Virus record (IMG/VR): IMGVR_UViG_3300031952_000062
Span: 1 to 37,487 of that record
Direction: 5' to 3' (one strand)
From: a virus
Length of the DNA: 37,487 nucleotides
Part shown: piece by piece, positions 1-37,024 of the stretch
Position numbering within the stretch: the stretch's first letter is position 1
How the letters are laid out: the number at the start of each line of letters is the position of its first letter
The notes under the pieces: generated by a model
Databases searched by the model: none
Told to the model about the DNA's origin: nothing
Seen by the model: the letters and a program-made list of their open reading frames with translations, nothing else
Made by a program: the position numbers and the translations under genes

Positions 1-106
1 TGGATTGCTTATAGAACAGTGCAATCTGCACTATAAATAAAAATAAAAATATTTTACAAAAACAGTTGACAAATAAGACAAACTATACTATAATATATGT
101 GTAAGT
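1..106. repeat. Left copy of 106-bp terminal inverted repeat
   Basis: Positions 1-106 are the exact reverse complement of 37360-37465. The identity covers a small hairpin (AGTGCA at 18-23, TGCACT at 27-32), an AT-rich UP-like stretch, the whole promoter and the predicted transcription start, and breaks right after the GTAAGT at 101-106. The right copy is followed by 22 more bases to the window end. If the molecule is circular, the two copies form a giant inverted repeat with a 22-bp spacer and divergent promoters. If it is linear, these are inverted termini. Confidence 0.95.
42..101 (+). promoter_or_regulatory. Strong sigma70-type promoter, left end
   Basis: TTGACA at 66-71, a 17-bp spacer and TATAAT at 89-94, so transcription should start near the G at 101. 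Just upstream is AAAAATATTTTACAAAA, which fits the classical UP-element consensus for RNA polymerase alpha subunits. The transcript would begin GTAAGT, which can pair with ACTTAC at 122-127 to give a 5'-terminal hairpin before the first gene. Confidence 0.9.
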
Positions 107-140
107 GAGTGCGGGACATAAACTTACCAGGAGAAACAAA

Positions 141-401
141 ATGATAACAAGAATGATGAATGAAAATGATGCATATGAAGCAAGAGAAGCCGCTGAAGGC
201 TTCATCCTTGAAGATGGAATGATGTTTGCCCGCGTCCACGTCGAAAGCGACGAAGACGGATACGTTCTCGTTCCCGGCGGGATTAATCACATGACCGTCG
301 ATTATTCTAAGTTGTTTTCAATTTTTGATCTCGAAACAAAAACGTTAGTATATGAAGCATCATGCTCGCAAGACGAGTATGGTTTTATAGTAGAAAAATA
401 A
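141..401 (+). CDS. Small acidic protein, first gene of left-end operon
   Basis: An 86-residue protein I do not recognise. ATG at 141 is preferred over upstream in-frame starts because CAGGAG lies 7-8 bases ahead of it. The protein is acidic (EDG, ESDEDG) and looks like a compact soluble beta-rich fold. It is the first gene behind the left terminal promoter, about 40 bases from the predicted start site, so it is probably expressed at once on infection. Small proteins in this position are often host-takeover factors, but that is inference from position only. Confidence 0.75.
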   Translation: MITRMMNENDAYEAREAAEGFILEDGMMFARVHVESDEDGYVLVPGGINHMTVDYSKLFSIFDLETKTLVYEASCSQDEYGFIVEK

Positions 402-406
402 TATTT

Positions 407-445
407 CCACCTACCCGGCGGGGTGAAGTGATACGCCGGGAATAC
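407..445 (+). promoter_or_regulatory. Structured leader L1 (hairpin/pseudoknot)
   Basis: CCCGGCG at 414-420 pairs with CGCCGGG at 434-440. CACC just upstream (408-411) could pair with GGTG inside the loop, giving an H-type pseudoknot. An AAGGAG and the ATG at 461 follow. The same architecture recurs upstream of other small genes near both genome ends. Confidence 0.6.
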
Positions 446-460
446 CGGTAAGGAGAAAAC

Positions 461-763
461 ATGAAAAATAATTTTTTTTGGTTAAAAAAATATATGGCAA
501 AGTCGTACATTTTTCGGGAGAGATGGATAGGTCTTCCTAAAAAAGGTGTTGAAGGTTACTCATCTCGTCTCAACCACCTATTGCTTATTGAAAATGGTAG
601 TAAATATTTTATAAAAATTGGTGATGTTCTGGATGGAATCAGAACGGTTGGTATTACTGAAAAGCAATTCGTTCGAATGTTTCGAATTGAAATATTGAGA
701 CGTTTTTTTTTGTATTGTTTTTGGGGAGTAGAGAGTAATGAGTTCTCGAAACCGAAAAAGTAA
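461..763 (+). CDS. Hypothetical basic protein, 100 aa
   Basis: A basic, aromatic-rich 100-residue protein with no family I recognise. ATG 461 has AAGGAG 6 bases upstream. Its last codons lie in a 43-bp sequence (725-767) repeated exactly at 2393-2435 after the last gene of this operon. The carboxyl end may therefore have been exchanged, or the distal copy may be the scar of a lost gene. It sits between leaders L1 and L2 in the left-end operon. Confidence 0.6.
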   Translation: MKNNFFWLKKYMAKSYIFRERWIGLPKKGVEGYSSRLNHLLLIENGSKYFIKIGDVLDGIRTVGITEKQFVRMFRIEILRRFFLYCFWGVESNEFSKPKK

Positions 764-767
764 ACCC
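725..767 (+). repeat. 43-bp direct repeat, copy 1
   Basis: Identical to 2393-2435. This copy encodes the last codons of the 461-763 gene, its stop codon and the start of leader L2. Confidence 0.95.
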
Positions 768-798
768 TACCCGGCGGGGTGTCGGTCGCCGGGAATAC
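765..798 (+). promoter_or_regulatory. Structured leader L2
   Basis: CCCGGCG and CGCCGGG form a 7-bp stem, with a GGGT-containing loop that could pair with the upstream CCC. It is followed by AAAATGGAG and the start codon at 818. Its loop differs from L1 while the stem is identical. Confidence 0.55.
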
Positions 799-817
799 AA
801 AAAAAATGGAGACTAAC

Positions 818-1132
818 ATGAAAAAAAATGAAGTCAAGTACATAATTGAAAGGAAAGCAAGCGAGATAGATAGGATGGAGTTCAATCATATTATAACTGG
901 CGTAGAGGTAAGGGTTTTGTGGATTGAACGTAATGCGGAAAAGTTGCCACTTAACAAGAAGATTGACTCATCGGAGGCTAGACAAGACAGGATGAACCAA
1001 TTTCTTACCCAGGCTACAGGGTTATCTATTTCAGAGGTTGACGAGGTTTTATGGTGCGTCGATAATGGGAAATGGAACGAAAAAACTAAGGCCATAGCGC
1101 AGAAAGTTATTGACGCATATAATTCAAGATAA
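818..1132 (+). CDS. Hypothetical helical protein, 104 aa
   Basis: Unrecognised protein of 104 residues, mostly charged and predicted helical by composition. ATG 818 has GGAG 6 bases upstream. That GGAG is embedded in an in-frame ATG (806), so a form four residues longer, starting METN, is possible. The same ATGGAG arrangement precedes four other small genes here. Only the leader context links it to its neighbours. Confidence 0.65.
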   Translation: MKKNEVKYIIERKASEIDRMEFNHIITGVEVRVLWIERNAEKLPLNKKIDSSEARQDRMNQFLTQATGLSISEVDEVLWCVDNGKWNEKTKAIAQKVIDAYNSR

Positions 1133-1145
1133 TTTTATCAGAGCG

Positions 1146-1180
1146 CACCTACCCCGGCGGGGTGCCAGTTGCCGGGGAAC
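1146..1180 (+). promoter_or_regulatory. Structured leader L3
   Basis: CCCCGGC pairs with GCCGGGG around a 12-base loop carrying GGTG, which could pair with CACC at 1146-1149. Compared with L1 and L2 the stem has shifted composition but stays fully paired, which supports a conserved structure. Confidence 0.6.
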
Positions 1181-1199
1181 AAATCAAATGGAGACTAAC

Positions 1200-1403
1200 A
1201 TGACGAAGAATGAAGCCGTAACGGAAATAGTCAAGAGAAATGGAATATGGGAAGTTGTTGGAAAAAAAACCGGTATCATATATTTTTCAGGTACGCTTTT
1301 TGGTTGCTGCTCAGTAGGAGACGAATACGACTCCGAAGAAAAGGAAGTCAATGAAATGAAATCCAACCGAATTTCCACAAACGCACTGGCCGACCCATCA
1401 TAG
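1200..1403 (+). CDS. Hypothetical protein, 67 aa
   Basis: Small unrecognised protein. ATG 1200 has GGAG inside the ATGGAGACTAAC leader, and an in-frame ATG 12 bases upstream could add METN. The amino end (MTKNEAVTEIVKRNG) resembles those of other genes that follow the same leader type (MKKNEV..., MTKNEN...). The leader and the first codons may have been duplicated together and joined to different bodies. Confidence 0.6.
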   Translation: MTKNEAVTEIVKRNGIWEVVGKKTGIIYFSGTLFGCCSVGDEYDSEEKEVNEMKSNRISTNALADPS

Positions 1404-1412
1404 TTTATTCCA

Positions 1413-1450
1413 CACCTACCCCGGAGGGTGCAGTGATACCCGGGGAATAC
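1413..1450 (+). promoter_or_regulatory. Structured leader L4
   Basis: CCCCGG at the 5' side pairs with CCGGGG at the 3' side. CACC at 1413-1416 could pair with GGTG in the loop. AAGGAG and the ATG at 1467 follow. The loop sequence GCAGTGATA is shared with the leader at 27841-27877 at the opposite end. Confidence 0.6.
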
Positions 1451-1466
1451 AAAAAGGAGAAGCAAT

Positions 1467-1757
1467 ATGAACGACACAAAATACGCATGCGCAATACGTG
1501 ATTGTAAGTGGCTACACTCGCTAAACAAGAAAACGCAATTTGAGGTAATAATAGAGTCGGCGAAGCCAACAGTGTTATTACTGTGGCTCCAAACACATGA
1601 GATTGAAGTACCAGATATCGTGTGGTTAATTCTTGAAAAAATGAAAATTGACTTGCCAGCAGACAAGTCTGATATAGAGAAAGAGTTGTTGGATTGGCTT
1701 ACTTACATGGACGAAGAACAAAATAGGCACGAATATCAGGCGACAGGAGTATTATGA
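1467..1757 (+). CDS. Hypothetical protein, 96 aa
   Basis: Unrecognised 96-residue protein with two cysteines near the amino end and a helical middle (LLLWLQTHEIEVPDIVWLILEKM). ATG 1467 has AAGGAG 8 bases upstream. Its end overlaps a degenerate copy of the GC-rich leader (1757-1785), which precedes the alanine-rich gene. Confidence 0.65.
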   Translation: MNDTKYACAIRDCKWLHSLNKKTQFEVIIESAKPTVLLLWLQTHEIEVPDIVWLILEKMKIDLPADKSDIEKELLDWLTYMDEEQNRHEYQATGVL

Positions 1758-1801
1758 TCGACTGGGGTTATTGCCGGGAAACAAAAAATGGAGAAATAAA
1801 A

Positions 1802-2383
1802 ATGAAAATAACTAAAGAATATCTTCGTAAGCAAAATGCTTGCGAAGAATCATTAAAATTTGGCACCGAGCATGACATACTCGGTATGGAAGCTGTCCCG
1901 CTCATGGAACGATTGATTGAGCTTGAGGAAGTTGACTGGGCATTGTGGCTTTTGGTTCGAGTGATGAGCCGCAAGCAATGCATTGAATTTGCTTGCCACT
2001 GTGCGCGTTCTGTACTTCATATTTTTGAAGAACGTTTTCCGGGAGACGAACGGCCACGAAACACAATTGAACAAGCGGAGAAGTTTGGAACGCTAGACTT
2101 TGATGAAAAAATATGTAAAGCCTACGCCGCCAACGACGCCGACGACGCCGCCTACTACGCCGCCAAAGCCGCCACCAACGCCGCCTACTACGCCGCCAAC
2201 GACGCCAACGCCGCCAACGACGCCGCCGCCTACGACGCTAACTCCGCCTACGCCGCCTACGCCGCCAAAGCCGCCAACGCCGCCTACGCCTACGCATCCA
2301 AATGCGACAAAAAAGTAAAACTTGCCGATCTTGTCAGGATTGGAATAGATATGATAGGCAAAGTTTCAATCACTCATAGTTAG
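1802..2383 (+). CDS. Imm5-like alanine-rich protein, left copy
   Basis: A 193-residue protein in three parts: a conserved amino-terminal domain of about 100 residues (ALWLLVRVMSRKQCIEFACH, then a region reading FEERFPGDERPRNTIE), a low-complexity run of A, N, D and Y, and a conserved tail (KCDKKVKLADLVRIGIDMI). From memory the first part resembles the Imm5-type 'putative immunity protein' family, whose members also end in alanine-rich helices. No toxin gene is visible nearby, so the role is open. ATG 1802 follows GGAG at 1789-1792; an ORF running back to 1754 would read through the leader. A second copy lies inverted at 35902-36675, near-identical at both ends but with a different repeat length. 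Confidence 0.8.
   Translation: MKITKEYLRKQNACEESLKFGTEHDILGMEAVPLMERLIELEEVDWALWLLVRVMSRKQCIEFACHCARSVLHIFEERFPGDERPRNTIEQAEKFGTLDFDEKICKAYAANDADDAAYYAAKAATNAAYYAANDANAANDAAAYDANSAYAAYAAKAANAAYAYASKCDKKVKLADLVRIGIDMIGKVSITHS
2120..2300 (+). repeat. GC-rich triplet low-complexity tract (short version)
   Basis: Built almost entirely from GCC codons alternating with AAC, GAC and TAC, so it stands out as GC-rich in an AT-rich genome. It encodes the Ala/Asn/Asp/Tyr run of the left Imm5-like protein. A same-strand shadow frame reads Pro/Thr and is not a gene. The right-end homologue has a tract about twice as long. Confidence 0.9.
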
Positions 2384-2392
2384 GATATAAAC

Positions 2393-2435
2393 GGAGTAGA
2401 GAGTAATGAGTTCTCGAAACCGAAAAAGTAAACCC
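2393..2435 (+). repeat. 43-bp direct repeat, copy 2
   Basis: Exact copy of 725-767, here after the last gene of the left operon and not part of an intact gene. It runs into a decayed GC-rich leader-like hairpin (CCCCACC at 2433-2439, GGTGGGG at 2452-2458), so it looks like a gene end plus leader whose following gene was lost. Confidence 0.9.
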
Positions 2436-2451
2436 CACCCGGAGCTAATCA

Positions 2452-2472
2452 GGTGGGGGGGGGTTGGTTGGG
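2452..2472 (+). other. G-rich tract with G-quadruplex potential
   Basis: A run of nine G residues (2455-2463) is followed by TTGGTTGGG, giving several G runs on the plus strand at the convergent point between the left operon and the lysis genes. It might pause polymerases or fold as a quadruplex. The homopolymer length may also be an assembly error. Confidence 0.35.
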
Positions 2473-2488
2473 TTAAATCTAATAAGCC

Positions 2489-2550
2489 AAAACCGGGGTC
2501 CTCATTGCTATCATACCCCGGAAGATAGAGAGTGATAAAACAAAAATGAT
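2489..2550 (-). ncRNA. Candidate small antisense RNA with own promoter
   Basis: The minus strand has TTGACA at 2584-2579, a 16-bp spacer and TATACT at 2562-2557, so a transcript should start near 2550. No minus-strand gene follows. About 30 bases on, CCGGGGT (2521-2515) pairs with ACCCCGG (2499-2493) and is followed by TTTT, a weak intrinsic terminator. Promoter plus terminator would give an RNA of about 60 nt. If termination leaks, the product is antisense to the Imm5-like gene. Confidence 0.35.
2493..2521 (-). terminator. Weak intrinsic terminator
   Basis: A seven-base-pair GC stem, CCGGGGT/ACCCCGG, is followed on the minus strand by TTTTGG. It could end late transcripts after the lysis genes, or the short RNA from 2550. 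The U-tract is short, so efficiency is doubtful. Confidence 0.4.
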
Positions 2551-2556
2551 ACCTAT

Positions 2557-2584
2557 AGTATAATCTTTTTTTTGTATTTGTCAA
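2557..2584 (-). promoter_or_regulatory. Minus-strand promoter downstream of holin-like gene
   Basis: TTGACA, 16-bp spacer, TATACT. It starts only 3 bases past the stop of the holin-like gene and points into the convergent plus-strand operon, so it cannot serve the holin-like gene. Confidence 0.5.
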
Positions 2585-2586
2585 TA

Positions 2587-2982
2587 CTATCTTGAAAAAA
2601 ATAATTTTATTATTCCTGCTGATGCTCCCAATAAACCCAATGCCCCACCAATCACCCAAAAAAAACCTTTGATTTTTTCAATTATCTCGGAATTTTCTTT
2701 TGTTTTTTGAGCCACTCCGGGATTGATTCCGTCCCCCATCATTAACATTTTTAGGTCCCTCGATATCTTTGTTAATTCGGAAAGGTTGGCTTCCATTTTT
2801 GAAATCATCGATAATATAGAAGCAGGTCCAGTATCGATTATTGACGCCTTGATGGTTGGATACGTTGTGACAAGGTCGGATAGAATCCTGAATGCACCAG
2901 TCTGGTCTTGCAGTTCTATCTTCTGAGCAATATCACATGTTTGCTTACAGTCTTGTTTTTTATTTTGAGCCATTTTTGCCAT
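2587..2982 (-). CDS. Holin-like protein (XhlA-type topology)
   Basis: A 131-residue protein with a long charged/amphipathic amino part and one hydrophobic segment at the very end (FFWVIGGALGLLGASAGIIK), then a short basic tail. This topology matches XhlA-like hemolysin/holin proteins, in which a cytoplasmic helix precedes a carboxyl-terminal membrane anchor. It follows the lipoprotein gene directly, overlapping its 3' end, at the end of the late operon, as expected for lysis. ATG 2982 is preferred to the upstream TTG (2994) because a GGA lies just ahead. It could instead be another small membrane protein. Confidence 0.6.
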   Translation of the reverse strand: MAKMAQNKKQDCKQTCDIAQKIELQDQTGAFRILSDLVTTYPTIKASIIDTGPASILSMISKMEANLSELTKISRDLKMLMMGDGINPGVAQKTKENSEIIEKIKGFFWVIGGALGLLGASAGIIKLFFSR

Positions 2983-3181
2983 CCGGTATTCCAATTATGG
3001 GCCTAACGAATCCTGGAATAATCTCCGGGAATAGGACGTTAAGAAAATTCAACGCGTAATACGCGGCATCATATGCCGTTTTCAATTGAACCTCAAATTT
3101 TTCAGGGTTCTTTTGAATTGAAGCACACCCGGAAAAAAAAAGCATTAAAACCAGCACAAAAACTGTTAAATTTCGTTTCAT
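2960..3181 (-). CDS. Small lipoprotein, Rz1-like or exclusion protein
   Basis: 73 residues beginning MKRNLTVFVLVLMLFFSGC: a basic start, a hydrophobic core and a lipobox (FSGC), so it should be cleaved by signal peptidase II and lipidated at that cysteine. AAAGGAG lies 6-7 bases before ATG 3181. Lipoproteins next to holins in phages of diderm bacteria are often the outer-membrane spanin (Rz1). This one is not proline-rich, so superinfection exclusion is an alternative. It is the first gene after structured element copy 1. Confidence 0.7.
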   Translation of the reverse strand: MKRNLTVFVLVLMLFFSGCASIQKNPEKFEVQLKTAYDAAYYALNFLNVLFPEIIPGFVRPIIGIPDGKNGSK

Positions 3182-3212
3182 GTAAACTCCTTTTTTTAAA
3201 ATCGTTATAAAT

Positions 3213-3373
3213 TCAATGTCCACACACTTTATAAAACAACTTTGTTTTATCGAAGTGTAGCGGGGTTATCGTAAAAATACAAATCGATACAAGACAATCT
3301 AAGCGTTTATCAATATGTTTTGTTATTTAAAAACTGCAACGTCTAAAATTGGCTCATATCGATTTATAAACAT
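3213..3373 (-). repeat. 161-bp structured intergenic element, copy 1
   Basis: Near-identical to 33827-33987 and related to 10717-10863. It lies between the tail gene ending at 3383 and the lipoprotein gene, reading in the same direction. In minus-strand sense it has a long imperfect stem (9 bp of AAATCGATA/TATCGATTT plus 11 more positions with G-U pairs), a conserved internal loop and a second hairpin near the ribosome binding site. A C-G pair here (3237/3244) is T-A in copy 3. Confidence 0.85.
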
Positions 3374-3382
3374 TGTCTATTT

Positions 3383-5650
3383 TTAGTCAGGTGGATAAAC
3401 TTTGTCGTACATCAATTTTCCATTGACACCGAAAAAAGTATTTTGCAGGGTCTGTTGTGTACAATTTGCACCGCCAGCTCCCCAGGGGTTTCCGTGATGC
3501 AATGCGAATTCCTGAAATGAACCGGTTGTATATTCTGTTGTGGCAAGCCCAAACACCCTAAGCGCTCCAACAGTCAACCCCGCATTGTATGAGCTGCCGG
3601 AATTCTGAGTGGAAGATATAATCCTGACCCCATCCTTGTATAGAGATATTTCCGTATTATTTCCATTTTTTTTCAAATACAATATGATGTGGCTCCACAC
3701 TCCAGCAACCAATCCGCTACTTATCGCCGAAATCCCAAAGTCTTGGACCGCATTCGTTTGTTTTGCAATACTTAGGTATCCGGTCGTAGCGAGCATTCGG
3801 AGAGCATAGAAATCTCTTTGAGTGTCTTCTCTCCCAACAGAAAATATTCTTTGATTTGAAGCGATTGAAAGGGGTCTGAATAGAAATGAAAATGAAATTT
3901 CATTTCTATCCGGCATACTTCCAATTTTGTCAAACGATGCTTGCGGTACAGTTATGTATGCATCTACTGCATTTGACCTCCATGACACCAGGTTTAGAGC
4001 GGTTGCATCAGTGAACTGCTTTACGTTCGAATTCGTTATTGAATTATTTCCGAGCGGACCAAGGGAGTGGTCGCAAAAATTGACAACCTCATTTCCCTCA
4101 GACTGGATAGAAAGTTGGCAGGTATAGTCCATCAATGCATGCTTGGTCACGTCCCAAAGAATTAGAACGCACGTGCCGGAATTTACGTTCCTTCGAATTC
4201 GGAGAATGCAATATTTCCGATTCACGGTTCCGGCGGAAATATCCTTGACATCCGCCATTTCAACGATATCACCTGGAAGCAAGGTGTATGGGAAACTTGA
4301 GTCTACCAGGGAAATCGACGTTTCGATGTAAGGTATATGTTTTTCCGCAAGTATGTATTTTTGCATATTGCAAGAATGGGTTTTGATATATGCAAACCTT
4401 AGGTCTTCATGAACGTGATGCGTTTTAAATTTCGAAATTGACCAGGACTTGTCCGGGGTATTGTCCGATTCGTAAAATAAAGCTTTTCCTTGAATGTTTT
4501 GGTAGCCCCAAAATCCTTCAATATCGTTTTTGATATCCTCTTCAATCGTCCGTGAGTAATTGAATGAAACGATATCCGAAGGAAAAATTTTATGGACCGA
4601 GGTTATATTTCCAGGTTCAATTGCGATCAATTCTAATTTTCCAATTGCGTTCACTCGAACCATACAGGAAAATGAATCTTGAAACATTTTCAAGACTTCC
4701 GCAGCAGACTGATCACCTTGCTGCGAAAACGCGACGGATAGGTCTGAACCTGACTGAAACTTTCTTCTTTGCAAAACAGCCAAAAACTCCTGATTAACCG
4801 CGGATGTTTCATCAATTTCCAAATCGGAACCAACCATTTTTAACATTTTTTTTAATGCAGTAATAGGGGTTAACCCTTTCCATCCGTATGTTGGCCAGCA
4901 TTTTAATTCAGTGGGGAGAGAGTCTCCAGACGCATTGATTAGAACTCTCACAATCGACTGCCCGTTTATGTTCCTCGCTTCTTTCGTTACCGAAAAGTTA
5001 GGAACGTCAACGTCGCCCGTCTTCAATACTTTTGTTACAGTTTCGCTTCCATCCGTGGTTGGCGTGTCAAATGCGATATAAGTTTTATCGTTTCCAACCT
5101 GATTTACCTGGTACGCCGTTATGACACCTCCGGGATAATTTGCAGACACAGGGATTTTTGAAGTGTCGATAACTCCAACACCGAATGCTATATATTTACC
5201 AGCGTTCAGCCCTGCATTAGCGTATTCGCTTTCTGATATTTCATTTGAGAATGGATTTGAAAATACCTGATTTCTGTCTTGAATTTTAAGGTAAAAAATT
5301 CCATTTTCAACTCCTTTGTCCTTCACGAACCCCCTACAAATTGTGTTTGCATCGGAAAGGGTCCCGTCCGATTTTTTCTTCATGAACATAACGTCGATAT
5401 GATGAATATTCGCAAGCTCCGTTTGTATTTGCCAAAATGCCGCGTTATTGGTTTCGACAATTTTCAGCGTTATTTCGTTCGCCTCAAACTCCCCAACACT
5501 GGAAACAATCTCGAAGTTTTCCAGGATTGCACCGGTTAAAAATTGACGAACCGTACCATCGAAGTCAACTGACTCCGTGTCTCCGGTTGTCAGGTACTGA
5601 TACCCGCCGCCGGCAACAAATTTGATGTATATGAAAATTTCATTTGCCAT
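3383..5650 (-). CDS. Tail tip/hub protein with LamG-like receptor domain
   Basis: A 755-residue protein, last of the tail cluster. The first ~500 residues resemble a tail-hub protein (VDFDGTVRQFLTGAI near the start; GLTPITALKKMLKMVG around 270). Residues from about 580 (ISFSFLFRPLSIASNQRIFS, then GVWSHIILYLKKNG and EISLYKDGV) look like a laminin-G/concanavalin-type lectin fold, suitable for binding a surface glycan. The order, after tape measure and distal tail protein, fits a central tip or host-recognition role. Start ATG 5650 follows GGAGGT and abuts the stop of the upstream gene. The two-domain reading is by eye. Confidence 0.75.
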   Translation of the reverse strand: MANEIFIYIKFVAGGGYQYLTTGDTESVDFDGTVRQFLTGAILENFEIVSSVGEFEANEITLKIVETNNAAFWQIQTELANIHHIDVMFMKKKSDGTLSDANTICRGFVKDKGVENGIFYLKIQDRNQVFSNPFSNEISESEYANAGLNAGKYIAFGVGVIDTSKIPVSANYPGGVITAYQVNQVGNDKTYIAFDTPTTDGSETVTKVLKTGDVDVPNFSVTKEARNINGQSIVRVLINASGDSLPTELKCWPTYGWKGLTPITALKKMLKMVGSDLEIDETSAVNQEFLAVLQRRKFQSGSDLSVAFSQQGDQSAAEVLKMFQDSFSCMVRVNAIGKLELIAIEPGNITSVHKIFPSDIVSFNYSRTIEEDIKNDIEGFWGYQNIQGKALFYESDNTPDKSWSISKFKTHHVHEDLRFAYIKTHSCNMQKYILAEKHIPYIETSISLVDSSFPYTLLPGDIVEMADVKDISAGTVNRKYCILRIRRNVNSGTCVLILWDVTKHALMDYTCQLSIQSEGNEVVNFCDHSLGPLGNNSITNSNVKQFTDATALNLVSWRSNAVDAYITVPQASFDKIGSMPDRNEISFSFLFRPLSIASNQRIFSVGREDTQRDFYALRMLATTGYLSIAKQTNAVQDFGISAISSGLVAGVWSHIILYLKKNGNNTEISLYKDGVRIISSTQNSGSSYNAGLTVGALRVFGLATTEYTTGSFQEFALHHGNPWGAGGANCTQQTLQNTFFGVNGKLMYDKVYPPD

Positions 5651-6465
5651 TAAATTACCTCCGAAAATTTAAAATTTAATTCTTTGTCTATTTGGAGTCC
5701 CAACAATTCGTTTTTGTTAAGCCTGGGAGAAACTTGTGTCATTCCGCCATAATAAAACGGGTCTGAGGCTCCCAGGGATGGATAGAAAACGACTCTGTTT
5801 TCCATGCATATATTTTCAAGTTCATTCGCTTCCGCCAGAGTTCCAAAGTTTAGAAATTCACCCTCGAATGACTGAACCTGATTGACCAGGAATTTTGTTC
5901 CGAACTGGTTTTCAACTTCAATTCTCCTTGATAGGTTTCCAGCCTCAATCCCGGAGGCATAACCGAATGCCGGAGAAAAAACATTCGAACAATTAATCAC
6001 TTCCCCAACCTGGTAGACTGACTGAGCAAGTGAAGAATTTAAGTTTATTTTTATTCGAAATTGCTTGAAAGTTTTCGTCCCGGACGGAATTGCATAATTA
6101 ATTATATATGTATAGGCCGTCAACGTTCCAGAGTTGTTCTTTTTTCTTTTCGTAATTGTTTTTGTTAAAAATGTGGTACTGGTTACGTTGGCAAAATTGT
6201 CTGAACTCAATTGAAGTTCAAAACTATCACCGCCGACAATTGTACAATTTAAGTTTGAGTTTATCAAAAATACGCCTTCCGTTGAATATGTCGTTGTATT
6301 TCCCGCATCCCCAAAAGTGAGATATACATTTGCCGCTTTCGTAGCCTTCCAAATCCGTTGCGGGTCAAGCGTTATGACATTCGAAACGGGAAATCCGGTC
6401 AGCGATGATGTCGCCGTCGGGGTGAAAAGTTTTGCGTTATTTCCATAATATACTTTGTAATTCAT
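5650..6465 (-). CDS. Distal tail / baseplate protein
   Basis: 271 residues directly after the tape measure, where siphophages place the distal tail protein that joins tube to tip. The early segment FPVSNVITLDPQRIWKATKA, followed by NVYLTFGDAG, has the look of a galactose-binding (discoidin-like) fold that appears in several distal tail proteins. CAGGAG precedes ATG 6465, and the gene starts one base after the tape measure stop, so translation is probably coupled. Sequence support for the fold is modest; position is the stronger argument. Confidence 0.65.
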   Translation of the reverse strand: MNYKVYYGNNAKLFTPTATSSLTGFPVSNVITLDPQRIWKATKAANVYLTFGDAGNTTTYSTEGVFLINSNLNCTIVGGDSFELQLSSDNFANVTSTTFLTKTITKRKKNNSGTLTAYTYIINYAIPSGTKTFKQFRIKINLNSSLAQSVYQVGEVINCSNVFSPAFGYASGIEAGNLSRRIEVENQFGTKFLVNQVQSFEGEFLNFGTLAEANELENICMENRVVFYPSLGASDPFYYGGMTQVSPRLNKNELLGLQIDKELNFKFSEVI

Positions 6466-9400
6466 TTATAACTCCTGCATAAATGTCTTGTATCCGCCGA
6501 CATTATTTATTGCGAGACGTTTCAAAATTTGAACAAGGGCGTAGTCGTCCGGGAATTTCACTTTATCAAATCCTTGCTTTATTGACGAAATGAATTCTCG
6601 CGCCAGGCTGGATTCCCTCGCCGTATTTGTTTCGCCTGAAACTCTTATGTTTATATCCATTGCTCTTCGGCCTGCCGGTTCAATGCCTCTTGAAATCGGA
6701 AGCGATGGAGAAATTGACGATTCCCCGTACCCAGTAGAAATATTGAGAGATTGAATTGATTCAAGATTTGATTTTAGGTCAACGACGGATTGATTTACTG
6801 ACTCAATTTGAGACTGAAAGGAAAAAAAATCGTTTTCCATGCTCCCCGCTGCCAACGTTGCAGCCTTTGCGGTTTCTTCAAGTTCAACCTTCGACGTTGC
6901 AAATAGATCATCTTGAACGACAGCATCAAAAACCATTGCGGGCGTGTTGGCTGCGGTATCCTGGAAATTGAGCATTTCCGCCGATGCTTTTTTCATTGCA
7001 TCAGGTACGCTCCCGCCCAACGTTTCGACGAGGAGCAAAACGGCATCGGTAACAAGCTTGAAGCCTTCGCCCATCGTCTGCTGTTCCGTTTTTATTTTTG
7101 CCTGGTTTTCAGAAACGAACCCCAAGGCTGTGGCCTGTTCAATGATCGCCTTCGTTCCGTCGTCAAGTATCCATCCAAAATCCGTAGAAAGAAGATTAAT
7201 TCTTTGGAGCTGGCCTTGCATCATTTGAAATATTTCGGCATCAGAGAACCCGGCTTTTTGCAATTCGGAAACCTGATTTTTCAACGTCGTTTGGTAGTCG
7301 TCGAATTGCCCTTGACTTTCAACCCGGAAAACGTTTGTAAAGTTCGTCATTGCCTGTCCCCACCCCTTAACGGCGTTGACAAGTGTTTGATTTTCGGCAA
7401 CCTTTTTTTCATATGCAATCATGTCATCGTATAGCTGAATTGAAGCGTTTCCAAAAACGGCTTGAAGGCTTTTTGCCTCTTCGAGCTTTCTCTCCAGCTC
7501 ATTCAAGTTCATCAATTTCGACATGTCGATTTCGTCCGGCTTCTTTCCGCCGAATATTTCATTTTTCAACGCTGCAATTTGAGACTCAAGTTCCGTTGTA
7601 TCGATCGACTCGAGCATTTTCTTATACCCGGAAAGTCCGGCTTGACTTGACTTTTGTATATAGTCGAAAATTTCTTGAACAAAGACCCCTTGCTTTTTCA
7701 TTTCTTCGAACATCAAGACCCAACCGGTCGTAGCCGCTCCACCCTCGAGACCAAGCTGCCTTGCTTTTTCAATCAGCGCATCAAATGCTTTTCCGAAATT
7801 TTCCGCAGTTTCGGAAGCACCCGCAACCCCCTGCGTAAATCCTGAAAAAATATTTCTAAGACGTTCAGACCATTGATTGAAGTTTTCAAAGGTAATATTT
7901 GAGGTTCGAATCATTTCACCAAATACCGCGTTCATTGCCCGGCCAGCCGAACCAACCCCACCGATTGCCTTCGCTGCCTTTTCAAGTTCTTTTGTCCAAT
8001 CTCGAGTTATTCCGGACAAACCTTTTAGGTCTCTTTCGATTGCTTTCAATTCCCCTGACTTTCCTTTCAACCATGAAAATAAAGCTCCAACAACCGAAAT
8101 CGCCCCGGAAAGAATTCCAAGGCCAGCGGATATTTTTCCCAATATTCCCATGAATCCGGTGCCCGACTCTTTCCACGCTTTCATTCCTGCAATCCCAGCA
8201 GACAGACCGCCGGTCAATCCTGAAATCATCCCGGCGGTCTTCGAGGATATTAGTCCCATTTTTTCAAGAGATGAAACCGCCGTATTGGTTGCCTGAATAA
8301 GCGCCTCAAAATTATCAGTAGTTTTCTTCGTTGTTTCTGACGTTTGTTTCATTCCTGAATTTGTGTTTTTCATCGCTGAGGCCATTGCTGAAAATATTGG
8401 ATTGAATTGTCCCATCAATCGAAGCATGTCGATTATTTTTTTATTTGCCTCGTCTATTTCGGTTGTTATTTTTTGAAATTCCGGTGGAACTTCGGAGCCG
8501 GCCGTGATAAATGTATCAGATAGAGAAGACATTTCATCCCTCATCTTTTTCATCATCACGACGTCAGAAAGGATTTCTCCCTTGAACTTTGAAAAAACAT
8601 CAATTAGAGCCGTTGTTTTTACCTGAAACGGTTTCAATTGATCTTCCGTCAAGAGCCCTAAGGATTTCCGGTATTCGTCCGTGGCCTCTCTCAAGTCCTT
8701 TTGTTCTTTTGCGGTTGCATTCATTCCCTTTATGAGCGCATCAAGCGCATCCTTTCCGCCAAAAATGGCGTAAAACGTATCATCAATTGATTCCTTGTAT
8801 TTCTTTTGGCTTTCCGTTGCCTTGATGGTTGCGTCTGAAATGTTTTGAATCGAAACTGGGACCTTTGCGCCCTGGTCCGTAAATGACTTTGTCAACAAAT
8901 CCGTTTCCTTTTTTAACGATTCGGTCGCCGGTACACTTTTGAAAATTTCTTCCCGATGCGCATTATATACTGAAACTAAACCGGCAACTTTCTGAGATAA
9001 TTCAGCAGCGGAAATTGAAGAAATTTTAAGTTTGCCTTCGTATTCGGAGATCGCAGGGTTTACTTTTTCCACAGACCCACCCAATCCATCCATCCCACCC
9101 TTCACCTTTATGGTTCCTTGTTCTATTTTTTTATTGGCTTCGTTCCACTTTGCATAGTCCGAAGCCATTTTCTCGCCATAACGGCCACCCTGAATGGCTT
9201 GCATAATTCGCATATATCGAATTCCAGTATCCTCAATTCCCTGGAAATCAATGTTCATCCACCGCAATTGAGTCGACGTCAACTTAATTGCATCTGTCAT
9301 TTTTCCGAAACGGGATACCGCCATATTGGTCGTTTTTGCATTATCACGCTCCCTTGCCTCAATTTCGTCGAATTGAATTCCTAAATCTTTCATCAACTCA

Positions 9401-10698
9401 ACGATGATCGAAACTTCTGCCGCAAGAGCAACTAATGCGACTATAGGGAGAGCGGCAGTCAGTGCAACCATTGCCGTATTCAGAGCAACCGACGCAGTTA
9501 CCGCTGCCCACATCTGAATTTGGACCGCGGTCATCCCAGCAGTCATGGACGTGAACCACGCAACCGCAGTTGTTCCCATTACGATCAGCGCCTGCGTATA
9601 TCCCGCAACCTTGACAGTTCCAAACGCAACTGCAGCAGCAATTGCAACTTTGTCAAGTCCTCCGGCATAATCAGAAATATAAGAGACGACGTTTTGAATT
9701 GGAGAAATAATTGTTGTAATCGCATTTGCAGCGAAAGAAATCGCGGACCCAAAACCTCGAAAAAATGTCACAATTGAATCCCAATTTTCCGTCACGGTTT
9801 TTGCGACCTGTCCAATTGCATCTCCAATTGATTTTCCAAGCCCCTGAAAGGCTCCCTGTATTTCTGCACTCCCCAATCCATCTGAAATTGATTTGAAAAA
9901 ACCGGAAGCCTCAAAACCTTCAAGTAATCCGGTTCCAAACGCCTCCTTAATGTCTGCAATTGCCAATGTAAGTTTTTGCTGCGCGTCAACGAATCCGGTT
10001 ATGCTTGTATTTGCGTACCGCTTTTCCAATTCTCCCAGGATTGCCTCTTGAATTTTTGCTGCATCACCGGTTTTCAACATTTCGTCGATTACTTTCTTTT
10101 GATCTTTTGAGAAAACAATTCCGGCCTCACGAAGACCCCTTAGGGCAATATCGGGATGCTCCAATGCCATCGCAAGTTTTTTTGCCATATCGGTAGCGCT
10201 CTGTTGAGTGACAACCCCATCCCCAATTGACCGATTGACCGATATAGAAGCCCGTGTCACACGATCAAGCAATTCCGGTTGCAATTTTTGTTGAATAAGC
10301 GTTCTCTGAATTGATTCGGCGACTTCATTTTGAATGTTGAAGGTTTGCTGCATTACGCCCGCATACGCGCGCAGGTCTCCTGCTGTTCTACCGTATGCCC
10401 CACCGGCCCCATCAAGTGCGTTTTGAAGCATTTGAAGACTTCGAGTGCTCTCCGTTGCCTCTCCAATTGACTCTGAGAAAAAGCGGACCCCCTGCCATGC
10501 AAGAAAAAGTGCCCCCGCGGCCTTCGCCATATCAATCAGACTTTTTGAACTCGTCTCCGTTATCTTTTGATTTTTTTGGAGTGAAGTTGTGGTTTGGTTC
10601 GTTTCCTTTTGCAGTTTATCAAACGCCGTACCGGTGGCGTTTATGTTTGTGATTGCTCCCTTGCTGTCAACTTCTATCTTTAGTTCAATATTTGGCAT
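6466..10698 (-). CDS. Tail tape measure protein
   Basis: At 1410 residues this is by far the longest gene. It shows the classic mix of long coiled-coil stretches and a central hydrophobic block (about residues 350-430, rich in A, V, I, with TVKVAGYTQALIVMGTTAVA), plus a second glycine/alanine-rich region near 860-930. The tape measure sets tail length and lies in the tube until DNA ejection. At about 0.15 nm per residue the tail would be near 200 nm. It directly follows the frameshifted chaperone genes, and its leader holds structured element copy 2. Start ATG 10698 has AAGGAA ahead of it. Confidence 0.95.
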   Translation of the reverse strand: MPNIELKIEVDSKGAITNINATGTAFDKLQKETNQTTTSLQKNQKITETSSKSLIDMAKAAGALFLAWQGVRFFSESIGEATESTRSLQMLQNALDGAGGAYGRTAGDLRAYAGVMQQTFNIQNEVAESIQRTLIQQKLQPELLDRVTRASISVNRSIGDGVVTQQSATDMAKKLAMALEHPDIALRGLREAGIVFSKDQKKVIDEMLKTGDAAKIQEAILGELEKRYANTSITGFVDAQQKLTLAIADIKEAFGTGLLEGFEASGFFKSISDGLGSAEIQGAFQGLGKSIGDAIGQVAKTVTENWDSIVTFFRGFGSAISFAANAITTIISPIQNVVSYISDYAGGLDKVAIAAAVAFGTVKVAGYTQALIVMGTTAVAWFTSMTAGMTAVQIQMWAAVTASVALNTAMVALTAALPIVALVALAAEVSIIVELMKDLGIQFDEIEARERDNAKTTNMAVSRFGKMTDAIKLTSTQLRWMNIDFQGIEDTGIRYMRIMQAIQGGRYGEKMASDYAKWNEANKKIEQGTIKVKGGMDGLGGSVEKVNPAISEYEGKLKISSISAAELSQKVAGLVSVYNAHREEIFKSVPATESLKKETDLLTKSFTDQGAKVPVSIQNISDATIKATESQKKYKESIDDTFYAIFGGKDALDALIKGMNATAKEQKDLREATDEYRKSLGLLTEDQLKPFQVKTTALIDVFSKFKGEILSDVVMMKKMRDEMSSLSDTFITAGSEVPPEFQKITTEIDEANKKIIDMLRLMGQFNPIFSAMASAMKNTNSGMKQTSETTKKTTDNFEALIQATNTAVSSLEKMGLISSKTAGMISGLTGGLSAGIAGMKAWKESGTGFMGILGKISAGLGILSGAISVVGALFSWLKGKSGELKAIERDLKGLSGITRDWTKELEKAAKAIGGVGSAGRAMNAVFGEMIRTSNITFENFNQWSERLRNIFSGFTQGVAGASETAENFGKAFDALIEKARQLGLEGGAATTGWVLMFEEMKKQGVFVQEIFDYIQKSSQAGLSGYKKMLESIDTTELESQIAALKNEIFGGKKPDEIDMSKLMNLNELERKLEEAKSLQAVFGNASIQLYDDMIAYEKKVAENQTLVNAVKGWGQAMTNFTNVFRVESQGQFDDYQTTLKNQVSELQKAGFSDAEIFQMMQGQLQRINLLSTDFGWILDDGTKAIIEQATALGFVSENQAKIKTEQQTMGEGFKLVTDAVLLLVETLGGSVPDAMKKASAEMLNFQDTAANTPAMVFDAVVQDDLFATSKVELEETAKAATLAAGSMENDFFSFQSQIESVNQSVVDLKSNLESIQSLNISTGYGESSISPSLPISRGIEPAGRRAMDINIRVSGETNTARESSLAREFISSIKQGFDKVKFPDDYALVQILKRLAINNVGGYKTFMQEL

Positions 10699-10716
10699 CC
10701 GAGTTCCTTTATAATT

Positions 10717-10863
10717 TCAATGTACACACACTTTATCAAACAACTTTATTTTATCGAAACGTCAATGGGTTATCGAAAAAATGTAAGTTGACACAAGCCA
10801 ATTTAAGCGTTTATTGATATGATTTGCTATTTAAAAACTGCAACGTCTAAAATTGGCTTTAAT
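10717..10863 (-). repeat. Structured intergenic element, copy 2 (diverged)
   Basis: Shares the core loop and flanks with copies 1 and 3 but is more diverged. Its inner stem is perfect here, AGCCAATTT (minus sense) with AAATTGGCT (plus positions 10850-10858 and 10796-10804), where copies 1 and 3 have a mismatch and a G-U pair. The outer stem and the second hairpin are weaker. It forms the leader of the tape measure gene. Confidence 0.8.
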
Positions 10864-10923
10864 TAATCCACGTAATCGTTCTATTTTTTCAAAAAAAGCA
10901 AAAGTGTTTGTGAAACTTAACTT

Positions 10924-24871: not shown

Positions 24872-24883
24872 AATTTAAAAAAA

Positions 24884-24959
24884 TGCCGTCGCCTGGATTC
24901 GAACCAGGAACATCCCGGGTATTATCCTAGGATTTCTACCAACTTTGAATTACGACGGC
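24884..24959 (-). tRNA. tRNA-like gene with irregular anticodon arm
   Basis: A 76-nt cloverleaf candidate. The acceptor stem GCCGTCG/CGACGGC is perfect, U8-A9 are in place, the T-arm CCTGG-TTCGAAT-CCAGG is perfect and the D-loop has GTTGGTA. The D stem has only three pairs. The anticodon stem CTAGG/CCGGG has one mismatch and one G-U. With a 7-base loop (ATAATAC) the anticodon would be AAT, unusual for bacterial isoleucine tRNA. CCA is not encoded. A decayed or specialised tRNA is possible. Confidence 0.75.
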
Positions 24960-24977
24960 ATACATGAAATTTCCAAA

Positions 24978-27563: not shown

Positions 27564-27773
27564 TTAAACCTCCTCGAATAAGGCATTAAATTTATTTAAT
27601 CCGACGACGCTATGCCGGGTGAACCCGTTTTCTTCATTGACGGGCTCCCGACTGCACTCCCAAACAGAAGAATCAGATTCATCGCAAATGTATAACTGTC
27701 CATGCAGTCGGTATTGGTTATAAATTTTCCCTACCATAAAATCTTCATTAGCAATAATACATTTTTCAATCAT
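27564..27773 (-). CDS. Hypothetical protein, 69 aa
   Basis: 69 residues from ATG 27773 (MIEKCIIANEDFMVGKIYNQ...), with GAGGAG upstream. It resembles compact beta-barrel-type phage small proteins and has no known motif. It follows GC-rich leader L6 after about 65 nt. Confidence 0.6.
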   Translation of the reverse strand: MIEKCIIANEDFMVGKIYNQYRLHGQLYICDESDSSVWECSREPVNEENGFTRHSVVGLNKFNALFEEV

Positions 27774-27840: not shown

Positions 27841-27877
27841 TGTTCCCCGGGTATCACTGCACCCCCCGGGGTAGGTG
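27841..27877 (-). promoter_or_regulatory. Structured leader L6
   Basis: In minus sense, CCCCGGG pairs with CCCGGGG around a GGTG-containing loop, with CACC upstream for a possible pseudoknot. It is the mirror-side counterpart of L1-L4, and shares the loop GCAGTGATA with L4. Confidence 0.6.
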
Positions 27878-27885
27878 GGTGGTTT

Positions 27886-28188
27886 CTATAGAGATAGAAG
27901 GTATGCAAGTTTTTCACTACCAAAAACCTCGTATGGGTCCGGCTCTACACAAATAGATTTCGCGCTGTCCCTATTCGGTCCAGGATAAGAATATATCCCG
28001 GCTTCATCGAACGAATAAAAAACGTAATGGTCTTTGGCCTCTTCTTCTGAAATTTTTCCGTCATTAATATCATCAATATAATAATGCGCGTAGATTTCAA
28101 AGTCATCCGAAACCATACCGGTTGCCTTCTCTTTTTGTATTAGCTTTTTAATTATTTCTTCTCTGGTCAAATTTTCATTCTTCGTCAT
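27886..28188 (-). CDS. Hypothetical acidic protein, 100 aa
   Basis: 100 residues from ATG 28188 (MTKNENLTREEIIKKLIQKE...), acidic, with a LTREEIIKKLIQ start resembling many small regulators. The ATGGAGATTAAC leader precedes it, with an in-frame ATG at 28200 that could add MEIN. The amino end resembles that of the left-end gene at 1200 (MTKNEA). Confidence 0.65.
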   Translation of the reverse strand: MTKNENLTREEIIKKLIQKEKATGMVSDDFEIYAHYYIDDINDGKISEEEAKDHYVFYSFDEAGIYSYPGPNRDSAKSICVEPDPYEVFGSEKLAYLLSL

Positions 28189-28208
28189 GTTAATCTCCAT
28201 TTTTTTTG

Positions 28209-28245
28209 TATTCCCGGCGTATCACTTCACCCCCCGGGTAGGTGG
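28209..28245 (-). promoter_or_regulatory. Structured leader L7
   Basis: CCCGG/CCGGG stem with the loop GGGTGAAGTGATA identical to L1 at the opposite end of the genome; CACC lies upstream. It lies between the 28251 and 27886 genes. Confidence 0.6.
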
Positions 28246-28250
28246 AAATG

Positions 28251-28832
28251 TTATTTTTTGCTGTATAAATCCCAAAAAACATTTCCACAGTAAACATTGG
28301 CTTCTTTTGTACCGAATCCAAAACGGGACACAGTTTCGATAATATTGCACACTTGAATAAACGAGATATCAACAATTACGGAATCCAATAATTCCGTTTC
28401 TCCGGGGATTTCCATGTTTGGGCATTCCCTCAAATACACGAATGTTCCGTCTCCTCTGTTTGAAATATAATGGGCGATTTCTCGCTCTACATCCGTTCTA
28501 CAATTCGTAGACAATACGTGGAGCCCCACGCAAAATCCACTTGAAAGATCGATAGTTTTTTCTTCTATCGACAGGTACATATCAGTATACTTCTTACTCC
28601 CGTACCCAGTCAGATTTTCATCTACACCCAGGTCGTCGCCGTTTTCATTTGAAAATCCGAAGGCTGTTACGGAACCATATACCGCGTTCCGGTTGTAATA
28701 ATACTTCATCAGCCGATACCCCATAGGGGTATTTATTAGGGTTACCGTTTCTTCGGATTCAGTATCACCTGTGCCCGGGTCTTCTCTTCTATCGGAAGAG
28801 ATTTCTTTTATTATTTCGATTGTTTCGTGCAT
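28251..28832 (-). CDS. Hypothetical protein, 193 aa
   Basis: 193 residues from ATG 28832 (MHETIEIIKEISSDRREDPG...). Unrecognised; mixed alpha/beta, with several cysteines in the middle and a late CNIIETVSRFGFGTKEAN segment. First gene behind the promoter at 28917-28945. ATGGAGATTAAC precedes the start; an in-frame ATG at 28844 may add MEIN. Confidence 0.7.
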   Translation of the reverse strand: MHETIEIIKEISSDRREDPGTGDTESEETVTLINTPMGYRLMKYYYNRNAVYGSVTAFGFSNENGDDLGVDENLTGYGSKKYTDMYLSIEEKTIDLSSGFCVGLHVLSTNCRTDVEREIAHYISNRGDGTFVYLRECPNMEIPGETELLDSVIVDISFIQVCNIIETVSRFGFGTKEANVYCGNVFWDLYSKK

Positions 28833-28916
28833 GTTAATCTCCATTTTTTTCGTTTTTCGTTTTCGTAGGCAAGTAAGTTATCGACCACCCGGGCCGCATC
28901 ACTCACTTACATATAT

Positions 28917-28945
28917 ATTATAGTATAATTTATCCTATTTGTCAA
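28917..28945 (-). promoter_or_regulatory. Strong promoter, UP-element module copy
   Basis: TTGACA (rc of 28940-28945), 17-bp spacer and TATAAT (rc of 28917-28922), with AAAAATATTTTACAAAA upstream. It is near-identical to the terminal repeat promoter from the UP element through the start. The predicted transcript begins GTAAGT and can pair with a downstream ACTTAC. Confidence 0.9.
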
Positions 28946-30494: not shown

Positions 30495-30523
30495 ATTATA
30501 TCATATCGATATTTCATTGTCAA
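30495..30523 (-). promoter_or_regulatory. Strong promoter, UP-element module copy
   Basis: TTGACA (rc of 30518-30523), 17-bp spacer, TATAAT (rc of 30495-30500). AAAAATATTTTACAAAA lies directly upstream, as in the terminal copies. The start region includes GTAAGTGAGTG. It should drive the 30445-28971 operon. Confidence 0.9.
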
Positions 30524-32812: not shown

Positions 32813-33807
32813 TCTTCACCTCCGCACTCCACCAACTCCTCATGCTTTTTTTCACGAACCAGGAAAAGAGTGTCAATCGTTCCCTTCTTTTCCCTCGAAC
32901 TACAAACGTCAAAAAATTGACATTTTCCATAATTTCCACTACAGGAATGGAAGTTCATAGGCCAATTTCCAATTGAAGCACATACTTCCAATCTCTTCAA
33001 ATTTTCGTAAAGCGACAATTCAAACTGAGTTCGAATCTCATCGCTATACGTCAACCAATGCCGGACGATATCCGATTCCTTATTCCTGATCGCTTCAATT
33101 ACTTCTGAATAATCGGAAATATTGAATCCATTTTCCTTGATTGCTTCCAAAAAAAGCGAAATAGTCGTATTCTGCCTCTTGTCAACTGAAAGCGATTTTC
33201 CGCTTTTTAACAACTTAGGTTTTTCTGGAATTTCAATCTTCTTGATAAGATTGAATGCAACACCGACGGCACCTGGAAACGCTGTCAAGTATGTGAGCGC
33301 CTGCGGAAGCATTGTCAATCCAAAAACGTAGTCACTCGAAATACTGGACACCGTCTTATGTTCGATTATCCATTTTTGCCCACCGACCACCATTAATCCA
33401 TCAATCTTTCCTGCCACTTTTGTTTCCAGCGTGTCCAGCTCGAACGGATGAACAACGTTCATTGAAAACTCTTTTTCAACTTCAATGACATTCACATCAA
33501 CTCCGAACGTTTCTGCGTATCGACGAAAACACGAGATTGACACGTTCTCATCATTAGAAAGCATTGACAGGTCAATCAATTCAACCTGTCCATCCCGGAA
33601 CGAATCCAGGATGTATTTTTCAATTTCAACTGTCCCCATTCCGTTCAAATGCTTCGATATCGCATCATGGACAATCCGTCCAATTCGCAACGGTTTCGCC
33701 TCATCCAAAGGCGTCAGCATCAATTCGTATCGATAGGAATACTTACGCGGGCAAGTCATGAAACACGAAACGCTTGAATTCGTTTCTATTCTTCTTTGAT
33801 CTTTCAT
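32809..33807 (-). CDS. PD-(D/E)XK nuclease, RecB/Cas4-like
   Basis: 332 residues. SSVSCFMTCPRKYSYRYEL at the start is the typical Cas4/AddB-like opening. KPLRIGRIVHDAISKHL follows (motif I His), and KIDGLMVVGGQKWIIEHKTVS near 140 holds motif II D and III ExK. The late cysteines (CSGNYGKCQFFDVC), with the early CPRK cysteine, suggest an iron-sulphur cluster. Together with the SSB-like and Sak4-like genes just upstream it forms a recombination set. The leader is structured element copy 3; GGAG precedes ATG 33807. Confidence 0.85.
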   Translation of the reverse strand: MKDQRRIETNSSVSCFMTCPRKYSYRYELMLTPLDEAKPLRIGRIVHDAISKHLNGMGTVEIEKYILDSFRDGQVELIDLSMLSNDENVSISCFRRYAETFGVDVNVIEVEKEFSMNVVHPFELDTLETKVAGKIDGLMVVGGQKWIIEHKTVSSISSDYVFGLTMLPQALTYLTAFPGAVGVAFNLIKKIEIPEKPKLLKSGKSLSVDKRQNTTISLFLEAIKENGFNISDYSEVIEAIRNKESDIVRHWLTYSDEIRTQFELSLYENLKRLEVCASIGNWPMNFHSCSGNYGKCQFFDVCSSREKKGTIDTLFLVREKKHEELVECGGEE

Positions 33808-33826
33808 TTTTTAGCTCCATATAGTT

Positions 33827-33987: not shown

Positions 33988-33998
33988 GCTCCATTTTT

Positions 33999-36977: not shown

Positions 36978-37024
36978 GTTTTTCTCCTTACCGGTTTTAC
37001 CCGACCGGCGGCGGGGGTTCCCGT

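Follow-up and report, generated by a model that had tools for sequence, protein, structure and literature searches.

The phage record and its early units

The virus record IMGVR_UViG_3300031952_000062 was analysed as a whole, and its 37,487 bases (41% GC) are referred to below as the window. Because PHROGs matches to tape measure, major head, terminase and exonuclease were found in it, the record is assigned to a tailed phage. A comparison of bases 1–8000 with 50,697 phage records revealed no nucleotide relative, and the window terminase showed two remote matches in the same records, with identities of 25.6% and 23.5%. No match was obtained when the window terminase pattern was searched in viral contigs, and further protein queries for relatives of this phage retrieved none.

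Five perfect consensus promoters of the form TTGACA-N16-18-TATAAT were identified in the window, four of which head early units:

66–94, plus strand, early-unit promoter heading the left early unit
28917–28945, minus strand, early-unit promoter
30495–30523, minus strand, early-unit promoter
37372–37400, minus strand, early-unit promoter

At each of these four promoters, the transcript would start with a GUAAGURAGU-based stem, the other strand of which differs from unit to unit. These promoter stem-loops have only modest folding z-scores, between −1.0 and −2.5. Near the record ends, positions 1–111 and 37355–37465 form a 99% inverted repeat that carries the same early promoter facing inward, which could be due either to genuine terminal repeats or to assembly.

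Intergenic leaders upstream of small genes

All six of the leaders originally noted are real and related. Four lie on the plus strand (408, 764/765, 1146 and 1413) and two on the minus strand (27877 and 28244). They were delimited as follows, together with two weaker members:

408..440, plus strand, L1, CACC-TA-CCCGGCG-G-GGTG-AAGTGATA-CGCCGGG; ATG at 461, 20 nt past the pseudoknot
764..793, plus strand, L2, ACCC-TA-CCCGGCG-GGGT-GTCGGT-CGCCGGG with register-shifted S1; ATG at 818, 24 nt downstream
1145..1177, plus strand, L3, GCACC-TA-CCCCGGC-GG-GGTGC-CAGTT-GCCGGGG; ATG at 1200, 22 nt downstream
1413..1445, plus strand, L4, CACC-TA-CCCCGG-AG-GGTG-CAGTGATAC-CCGGGG; ATG at 1467, 21 nt downstream
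27845..27877, minus strand, L6, CACC-TA-CCCCGGG-G-GGTG-CAGTGATA-CCCGGGG; followed by the L3-like tail AACAAATCAAA and then unrelated sequence
28213..28244, minus strand, L7, CACC-TA-CCCGG-GG-GGTG-AAGTGATACG-CCGGG with a 5-bp S2; ATG at 28188, 24 nt downstream
1763..1801, plus strand, leader remnant before gene 1802, consisting of the 3' half and the ribosome-binding site only (recognised by eye)
36978..37015, minus strand, L8, a weaker member with a pseudoknot candidate of different sequence and a ribosome-binding site; its tail is L1-like

Grammar scans detected no pseudoknot at the remnant. By sequence, all six full copies fit the order S1-L1-S2-L2-S1'-L3-S2' of an H-type pseudoknot, with a first loop within 1–3 nt and an S2 of 5–7 bp. 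TA forms the first loop of every copy. Five copies have CACC/GGTG as S1, and L2 has ACCC/GGGT; the CACC that was thought to be common to the family is therefore present in five leaders but not in L2, which reads AACCC and can pair as ACCC/GGGT. The 5' arms of S2 are CCCGGCG (L1 and L2), CCCCGGC (L3), CCCCGG (L4), CCCCGGG (L6) and CCCGG (L7), and their exact complements are present. The GC stem can pair in every copy, in agreement with the predicted length of 5–7 bp, although S2 of L7 (CCCGG/CCGGG) reaches only 5 bp and fails the strict grammar described below. The third loop differs among groups of copies (AAGTGATA, GTCGGT, CCAGTT and CAGTGATA(C)). Two loops had been reported to be shared across opposite genome ends. 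The loops themselves are real, AAGTGATACG being common to the leaders at 408 and 28244 and CAGTGATACCC to those at 1413 and 27877, but the region at 27.9–28.2 kb is an internal early unit and no genome end.

By coordinates, the six elements start 0–13 nt past the point at which the preceding gene stops, and their orientation is always that of the gene. In five of the six (L1, L2, L3, L4 and L7), the distances from the pseudoknot end to the next ATG are 20, 24, 22, 21 and 24 nt, respectively, and the interval is occupied by an A-rich spacer and a GGAG-type Shine-Dalgarno (SD) sequence. The SD sequence expected behind each leader is accordingly found for these five, while L6 has neither an SD sequence nor an ATG right behind it. 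Judged from this position, 20–24 nt before the ATG in five of six copies, a ribosome-controlling role of the leaders is plausible. The genes that follow are small:

461..763, plus strand, small gene behind L1; no Pfam match
818..1132, plus strand, small gene behind L2
1200..1403, plus strand, small gene behind L3; no Pfam match
1467..1757, plus strand, small gene behind L4; no Pfam match
27564..27773, minus strand, small gene after L6, with its start at 27773, 71 nt beyond the leader
27886..28188, minus strand, small gene behind L7; no Pfam match above the cut-off

The Pfam search of the proteins behind L1, L3, L4, L6 and L7 gave no match to a single-stranded DNA binding protein, and the early protein encoded at 33999–34457 had no Pfam match. 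Eleven early proteins, among them the protein behind L2 entered from an inner Met (85 aa), were compared with one another and gave no match at E ≤ 1.

A start module of 15 bases, ATGGAGAYTAACATG, which comprises a ribosome-binding site and a start, recurs in the window at five places:

806–820, plus strand, start module
1188–1202, plus strand, start module
28186–28200, minus strand, start module
28830–28844, minus strand, start module
37286–37300, minus strand, start module

These five matches compare with a mean of 0.20 in shuffled sequences; three of them lie behind pseudoknots and two behind promoter stem-loops. From the promoter and module data, it therefore appears that a 5'-terminal stem-loop precedes first cistrons, that a pseudoknot precedes several inner ones, and that the module is common to both kinds of leader.

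Predicted pairing within the leaders

A generic H-type pseudoknot grammar (S1 of at least 4 bp, S2 of at least 6 bp and at least 80% GC in the stems) was applied to both strands of the window. In this strict form it retrieved five places, which are exactly L1–L4 and L6, while 100 dinucleotide shuffles gave no match in 95 cases and one match in 5. A narrow pattern, which was derived from the copies themselves, had four matches in the window and none in 100 dinucleotide shuffles.

The statement that the stems vary in sequence and yet stay paired was supported by computation when the S2 arms of the six copies were re-assorted. The arms in their own combination form 39 bp, which is the maximum of the 720 arrangements; it is tied by 12 of the 720, the mean is 31.7 bp, and the copies are related, so that the test is phylogenetically unclean. 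Copies with four C have four G, and those with three C have three G. S2 of L4 stops at an A opposite a C, and the 5' arm of L7 would form 6 bp with the 3' arm of L4 or L6, compared with 5 bp within L7 itself. Since L6 has no start site and L7 a short stem, not every copy appears to be tightly constrained. A permutation with ten sequences gave a fraction of 0.00011; four of its rows had been selected for pairing, and it was therefore set aside as evidence. In an automatic alignment with the pseudoknot imposed, 79.4% of the cells were paired and no two-sided change was seen, the S2 arms being mis-registered.

S2 thus shows compensating changes in length and base, while S1 is nearly invariant in the window and for this reason has little covariation support; shared descent would account for its constancy equally well. 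The proposed pairing of CACC with GGTG across the loop is possible by sequence, as a computed pairing potential. Taken together, an H-type pseudoknot is supported for the leaders at the level of computation.

When the leaders were folded with pseudoknots disallowed, S2 was present in all six full copies. In the folds of L2, L3 and L6, the SD sequence is free or lies in a 3-bp hairpin, and in those of L1, L4 and L7 it pairs with sequence upstream of or within S1. A toggle between pseudoknot and anti-SD pairing is therefore conceivable for the latter three; an anti-SD switch common to all leaders was rejected because the pairing is present in only three of six. Two other roles were rejected by eye. 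For a frameshift stimulator, Lys-codon endings are found in some upstream genes only, and for a stop-codon readthrough element, in-frame stops lie within L1, L4 and L7.

Leaders as probable joints between gene cassettes

Pairwise homology between the leaders spans the leader and reaches at most just past the start codon; additional upstream homology is limited to 28 nt and to the pair L1/L7. The closest partners differ along the element. The leader part of L7 is nearest to L1 (98%) and its ribosome-binding part to L3 and L2, the ribosome-binding part of L1 is closest to that of L8, with which it agrees over 21 aligned bases, and L6 consists of an L4-like pseudoknot joined to an L3-like tail. 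In addition, the 50 nt at 725–774 recur at 2393–2442 with 98% identity, and the right edge of this duplication lies inside a leader. The leaders show the marks of a recombination joint, in that their homology is largely confined to the element, the genes on either side are unrelated and the closest partner differs from one part to another.

The suggestion that the leaders are joints for small gene cassettes is well supported by these mosaic copies and by the unrelated downstream genes: the leader, the ribosome-binding site and the first codons repeat while the genes do not, which makes the leader a likely homology joint. On the sequence evidence, mosaicism is centred on the leaders, and they may favour exchange rather than tolerate it.

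Related elements in other phages

A pattern of the 5' half had 69 matches in viral contigs, two of them with a 7-bp S2 (locus L005 in record G001, and locus L058). Both elements precede a gene starting MAARIRKHHQ, which probably encodes the small terminase subunit, as judged from its position before the large subunit and from a separate analysis; the two phages are related, their large terminases being 88% identical. Of 481 terminase relatives found, 80 were kept and examined. A text search recognised a small-subunit start in 26 of these 80 loci and missed that of L128. The grammar scan of 148 loci yielded 165 pseudoknot matches, 23 of them with an SD-start pattern and many in GC-rich coding DNA, and added L128 (terminase 92%), with CACC-TT-CCCGGC-T-GGTG-TAAA-GCCGGG located 22 nt before the ATG.

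In this terminase trio (L005, L058 and L128), the pseudoknots lie 21, 22 and 33 nt before the small-subunit ATG. Their S2 stems, CCCCGGC/GCCGGGG, CCCGGC/GCCGGG and CCCCGGT/ACCGGGG, differ in length and in the inner pair, and the pairing is perfect. In all three, the CACC arm has a possible competing upstream partner, GTGAC...GTCAC, which is absent from the window copies. The element was absent from the upstream sequence examined in L130–L133 (terminase 84–87%) and from more distant terminase relatives.

An unrelated case was found in L240, where CCCACC-TT-CCCCGGC-GGTGGG-GCCGAA-GCCGGGG lies in the gap before a 64-aa gene, 43 nt before its ATG; by eye, the product is HTH-like. A final pattern gave 50 matches, seven of them with an S2 of at least 6 bp. 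Four of the seven stand before a candidate SD-start and are the three terminase loci and L240, and the remaining three are in GC-rich loci (66–71%) without an SD-start. The motifs in other phages were initially retrieved by patterns in which part of the sequence was already fixed.

In the 80 terminase-relative loci, 19 pseudoknot matches were counted, eight of them with an SD-ATG. With the two motif-found loci left out, an SD-ATG occurred within 40 nt of 6 of 17 GC-rich pseudoknots in the remaining 78 loci as compared with 7.8% at shifted positions, the six including the near-duplicate pairs L132/L133 and L204/L207. Plain GC hairpins in the same 78 loci had an SD-ATG in 27 of 473 cases (5.7%), as compared with 5.5% at shifted positions. 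No enrichment was seen in other phage loci, neither in 23 loci below 58% GC (0 of 5) nor in 89 loci of at least 58% GC (5 of 300). A phage-wide phenomenon was rejected on this ground, and since the enrichment is confined to the terminase-relative loci, pseudoknot leaders seem to be typical of certain phage lineages.

A related pattern searched in 84,980 bacterial and archaeal genomes had 40 matches, which were taken as chance; most have a 5-bp S2 or none, and no convincing SD-ATG was seen by eye at the position where one would be expected. An element found at both ends of record G003 was likewise attributed to chance, since its in-frame translation, made by eye, gives the C-terminal end of a small protein that resembles an excisionase.

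Two observations were made alongside. L132 and L133 contain, on the minus strand at 5306 and 4515, respectively, a pseudoknot candidate of very different sequence (CCCG-TAC-GGTAGC-CGGG-AATA-GCTACC) that ends 20 nt before an SD-ATG, a spacing also found for the window leaders. In L128, about 110 nt upstream of the small-subunit gene (positions ~480–590) are conserved at the same place in L058 and G001; this stretch has a second inverted repeat, GCGGT...ACCGC, and could be a packaging or regulatory site.

Comparison with known systems

In the gene 32 leader of T4, T2 and RB69, an H-type pseudoknot of ~28 nt is described upstream of a less structured ribosome-binding region (PMC535899, PMC3014915). 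The window leaders may share this arrangement, likewise on the mRNA of a tailed phage; with pseudoknots disallowed, their SD sequence is free or nearly so in L2, L3 and L6 and paired upstream in L1, L4 and L7. As those sources describe it, the gene 32 element occurs once, on the gene of the single-stranded DNA binding protein, where UUAAA repeats are present and the open RNA exceeds 40 nt, whereas the window has six copies before unrelated small genes, with the pseudoknot ending 20–24 nt before the ATG. The leaders may work like the gene 32 operator but are not assigned to its kind, since the leader genes tested gave no match to a single-stranded DNA binding protein.

Repeated elements just upstream of unrelated gene starts, some with inverted repeats, are also described for cluster K mycobacteriophages, where SAS is a 13-bp sequence at the ribosome-binding site and ESAS consists of two imperfect inverted repeats of 17 bp, both of unknown function (PMC3203893). 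The available part of that account mentions no pseudoknot, while the window leaders are pseudoknot candidates, and the 13-bp SAS (GGGATAGGAGCCC) has no match in the window with up to two mismatches. Ribosomal protein S1 is reported to bind pseudoknots of the H-type, and such a pseudoknot is required for the translation of tisB mRNA (PMC7708055). Like the leaders, that pseudoknot stands upstream of the start site, where it is described as aiding 30S binding; it acts ~100 nt upstream of a sequestered site, whereas the leaders adjoin theirs and a role of ribosomal protein S1 would be by analogy.

In literature searches aimed at phage pseudoknot leaders, none of the listed titles or abstracts described such a family, which is no proof of absence. 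Mobile regulatory cassettes in T4-type phages, reportedly described by Arbiol et al. in 2010, are said to carry an early promoter and a stem-loop and to use intergenic repeats as joints for gene shuffling. The window leaders are similar as intergenic, putatively regulatory repeats that probably act as joints and differ in that perfect consensus promoters are found only at the heads of units.

Possible functions of the leaders

The computed position, pairing potential, compensating stem changes and mosaic history of the leaders lead us to a reading to which we assign a probability of about 45%, namely that they are cis-acting initiation elements defining the ribosome-binding site of each cassette. 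The leaders would belong to early polycistronic messages, each filling the space that separates a stop codon from the following ribosome-binding site. After departure of the upstream ribosome, the leader would fold into the H-type pseudoknot, whose 3' edge, 20–24 nt before the start codon, would lie just outside the 30S footprint and leave the A-rich SD region free. In this way, initiation at each small gene would take place at an open site of its own, shielded from the sequence upstream. Because of the tisB precedent, the pseudoknot might further serve as a docking structure for the 30S subunit via ribosomal protein S1, provided that the host possesses it (PMC7708055); a host without working S1 would weaken this step. 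The same leader would double as a joint at which homology allows small gene cassettes to be swapped and duplicated. The effect on translation is one that we infer. If the reading is true, repeated exchangeable leaders would show phages adding and tuning accessory genes as ready-made expression cassettes, and the pseudoknot leader would be a compact, testable RNA part.

The T4 operator is described as a pseudoknot of ~28 nt with a less structured ribosome-binding region behind it (PMC535899, PMC3014915), a layout that the leaders may share, and a translational operator of the gene 32 type is a rival that we consider unlikely but worth weighing. A protein would recognise CACC:GGUG and the loop UA and spread over or block the ribosome-binding site, so that the small early genes would form one post-transcriptional regulon. 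The near constancy of S1 and of loop UA, against the variation of S2 and of the third loop, is what such recognition would leave; however, this constancy may reflect recent descent, and Pfam gives no match to a single-stranded DNA binding protein among the tested leader-gene proteins and no match at 33999–34457. A broader version, in our view similarly doubtful, would unite the window and external elements in one new phage RNA class, the constant face of which (CACC:GGUG and loop UA/UU) would be a portable translation-initiation operator. One factor would then govern a small early-gene regulon here and the terminase small-subunit gene in other phages, and the element would be a homology joint for the gain and loss of small genes. 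A barrier that stabilises mRNA seems rather less likely still. Cleavage in the AU-rich stop-codon region would leave the pseudoknot as a 5' end that blocks exonuclease or end-dependent decay; the stem that follows each of the four early promoters fits this idea, as the leaders hold an analogous place for inner cistrons, but the z-scores of those promoter stem-loops are only modest.

That the leaders are a neutral or selfish GC-rich palindromic repeat, copied between gaps by recombination and kept as a homology patch with no RNA role, would explain the mosaic copies, L6 without a gene start, the remnant near 1765 and the duplication 725–774 = 2393–2442 that has its edge inside a leader. It is nevertheless improbable, given that the orientation always follows the gene, the distance to the ATG is nearly constant, pairing is kept through changes and a similar element stands at a fixed place before the terminase gene elsewhere. 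The original prediction also considered RNA switches, and this proposal fared poorly. In a switch proper, a ligand, temperature or upstream translation would toggle the pseudoknot against an SD-hiding fold, as is hinted at by the anti-SD pairing that overlaps S1 in the pseudoknot-free folds of L1, L4 and L7 and by the competing upstream partner GTGAC...GTCAC of the CACC arm in the terminase trio. The anti-SD fold occurs in three of six copies only, the third loop is not conserved, the downstream genes are unrelated, and Rfam gave no family for the window leaders up to E = 5 and no match for five other-phage loci up to E = 1. We regard such a switch as very improbable, and a ligand switch as unsupported.

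Other features of the window

A solitary CRISPR-repeat-like sequence was detected at 2363–2392 on the plus strand (Rfam CRISPR-DR2, 38.0 bits with a cut-off of 37, E = 0.00058). It overlaps the stop codon of gene 1802–2383, and the duplicated segment 2393–2442 directly follows. It is a candidate solitary repeat unit or RNA anti-CRISPR (cf. PMC10651486, with the cut-off of which, as given there, these scores are not comparable). Imm5-like paralogs are encoded at opposite ends, at 1802–2383 (plus strand) and 35902–36675 (minus strand); both have long Ala/Asn/Asp/Tyr repeats, the coding units of which are GC-rich and 9–15 nt in length. A 192-nt repeat occurs in three copies, at 3193–3384, 10697–10888 and 33807–33998, the latter two being 76% and 91% identical to the first. 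Finally, one tRNA-Ile gene is located at 24883–24960 on the minus strand, with the anticodon AAT, which is unusual in bacteria.
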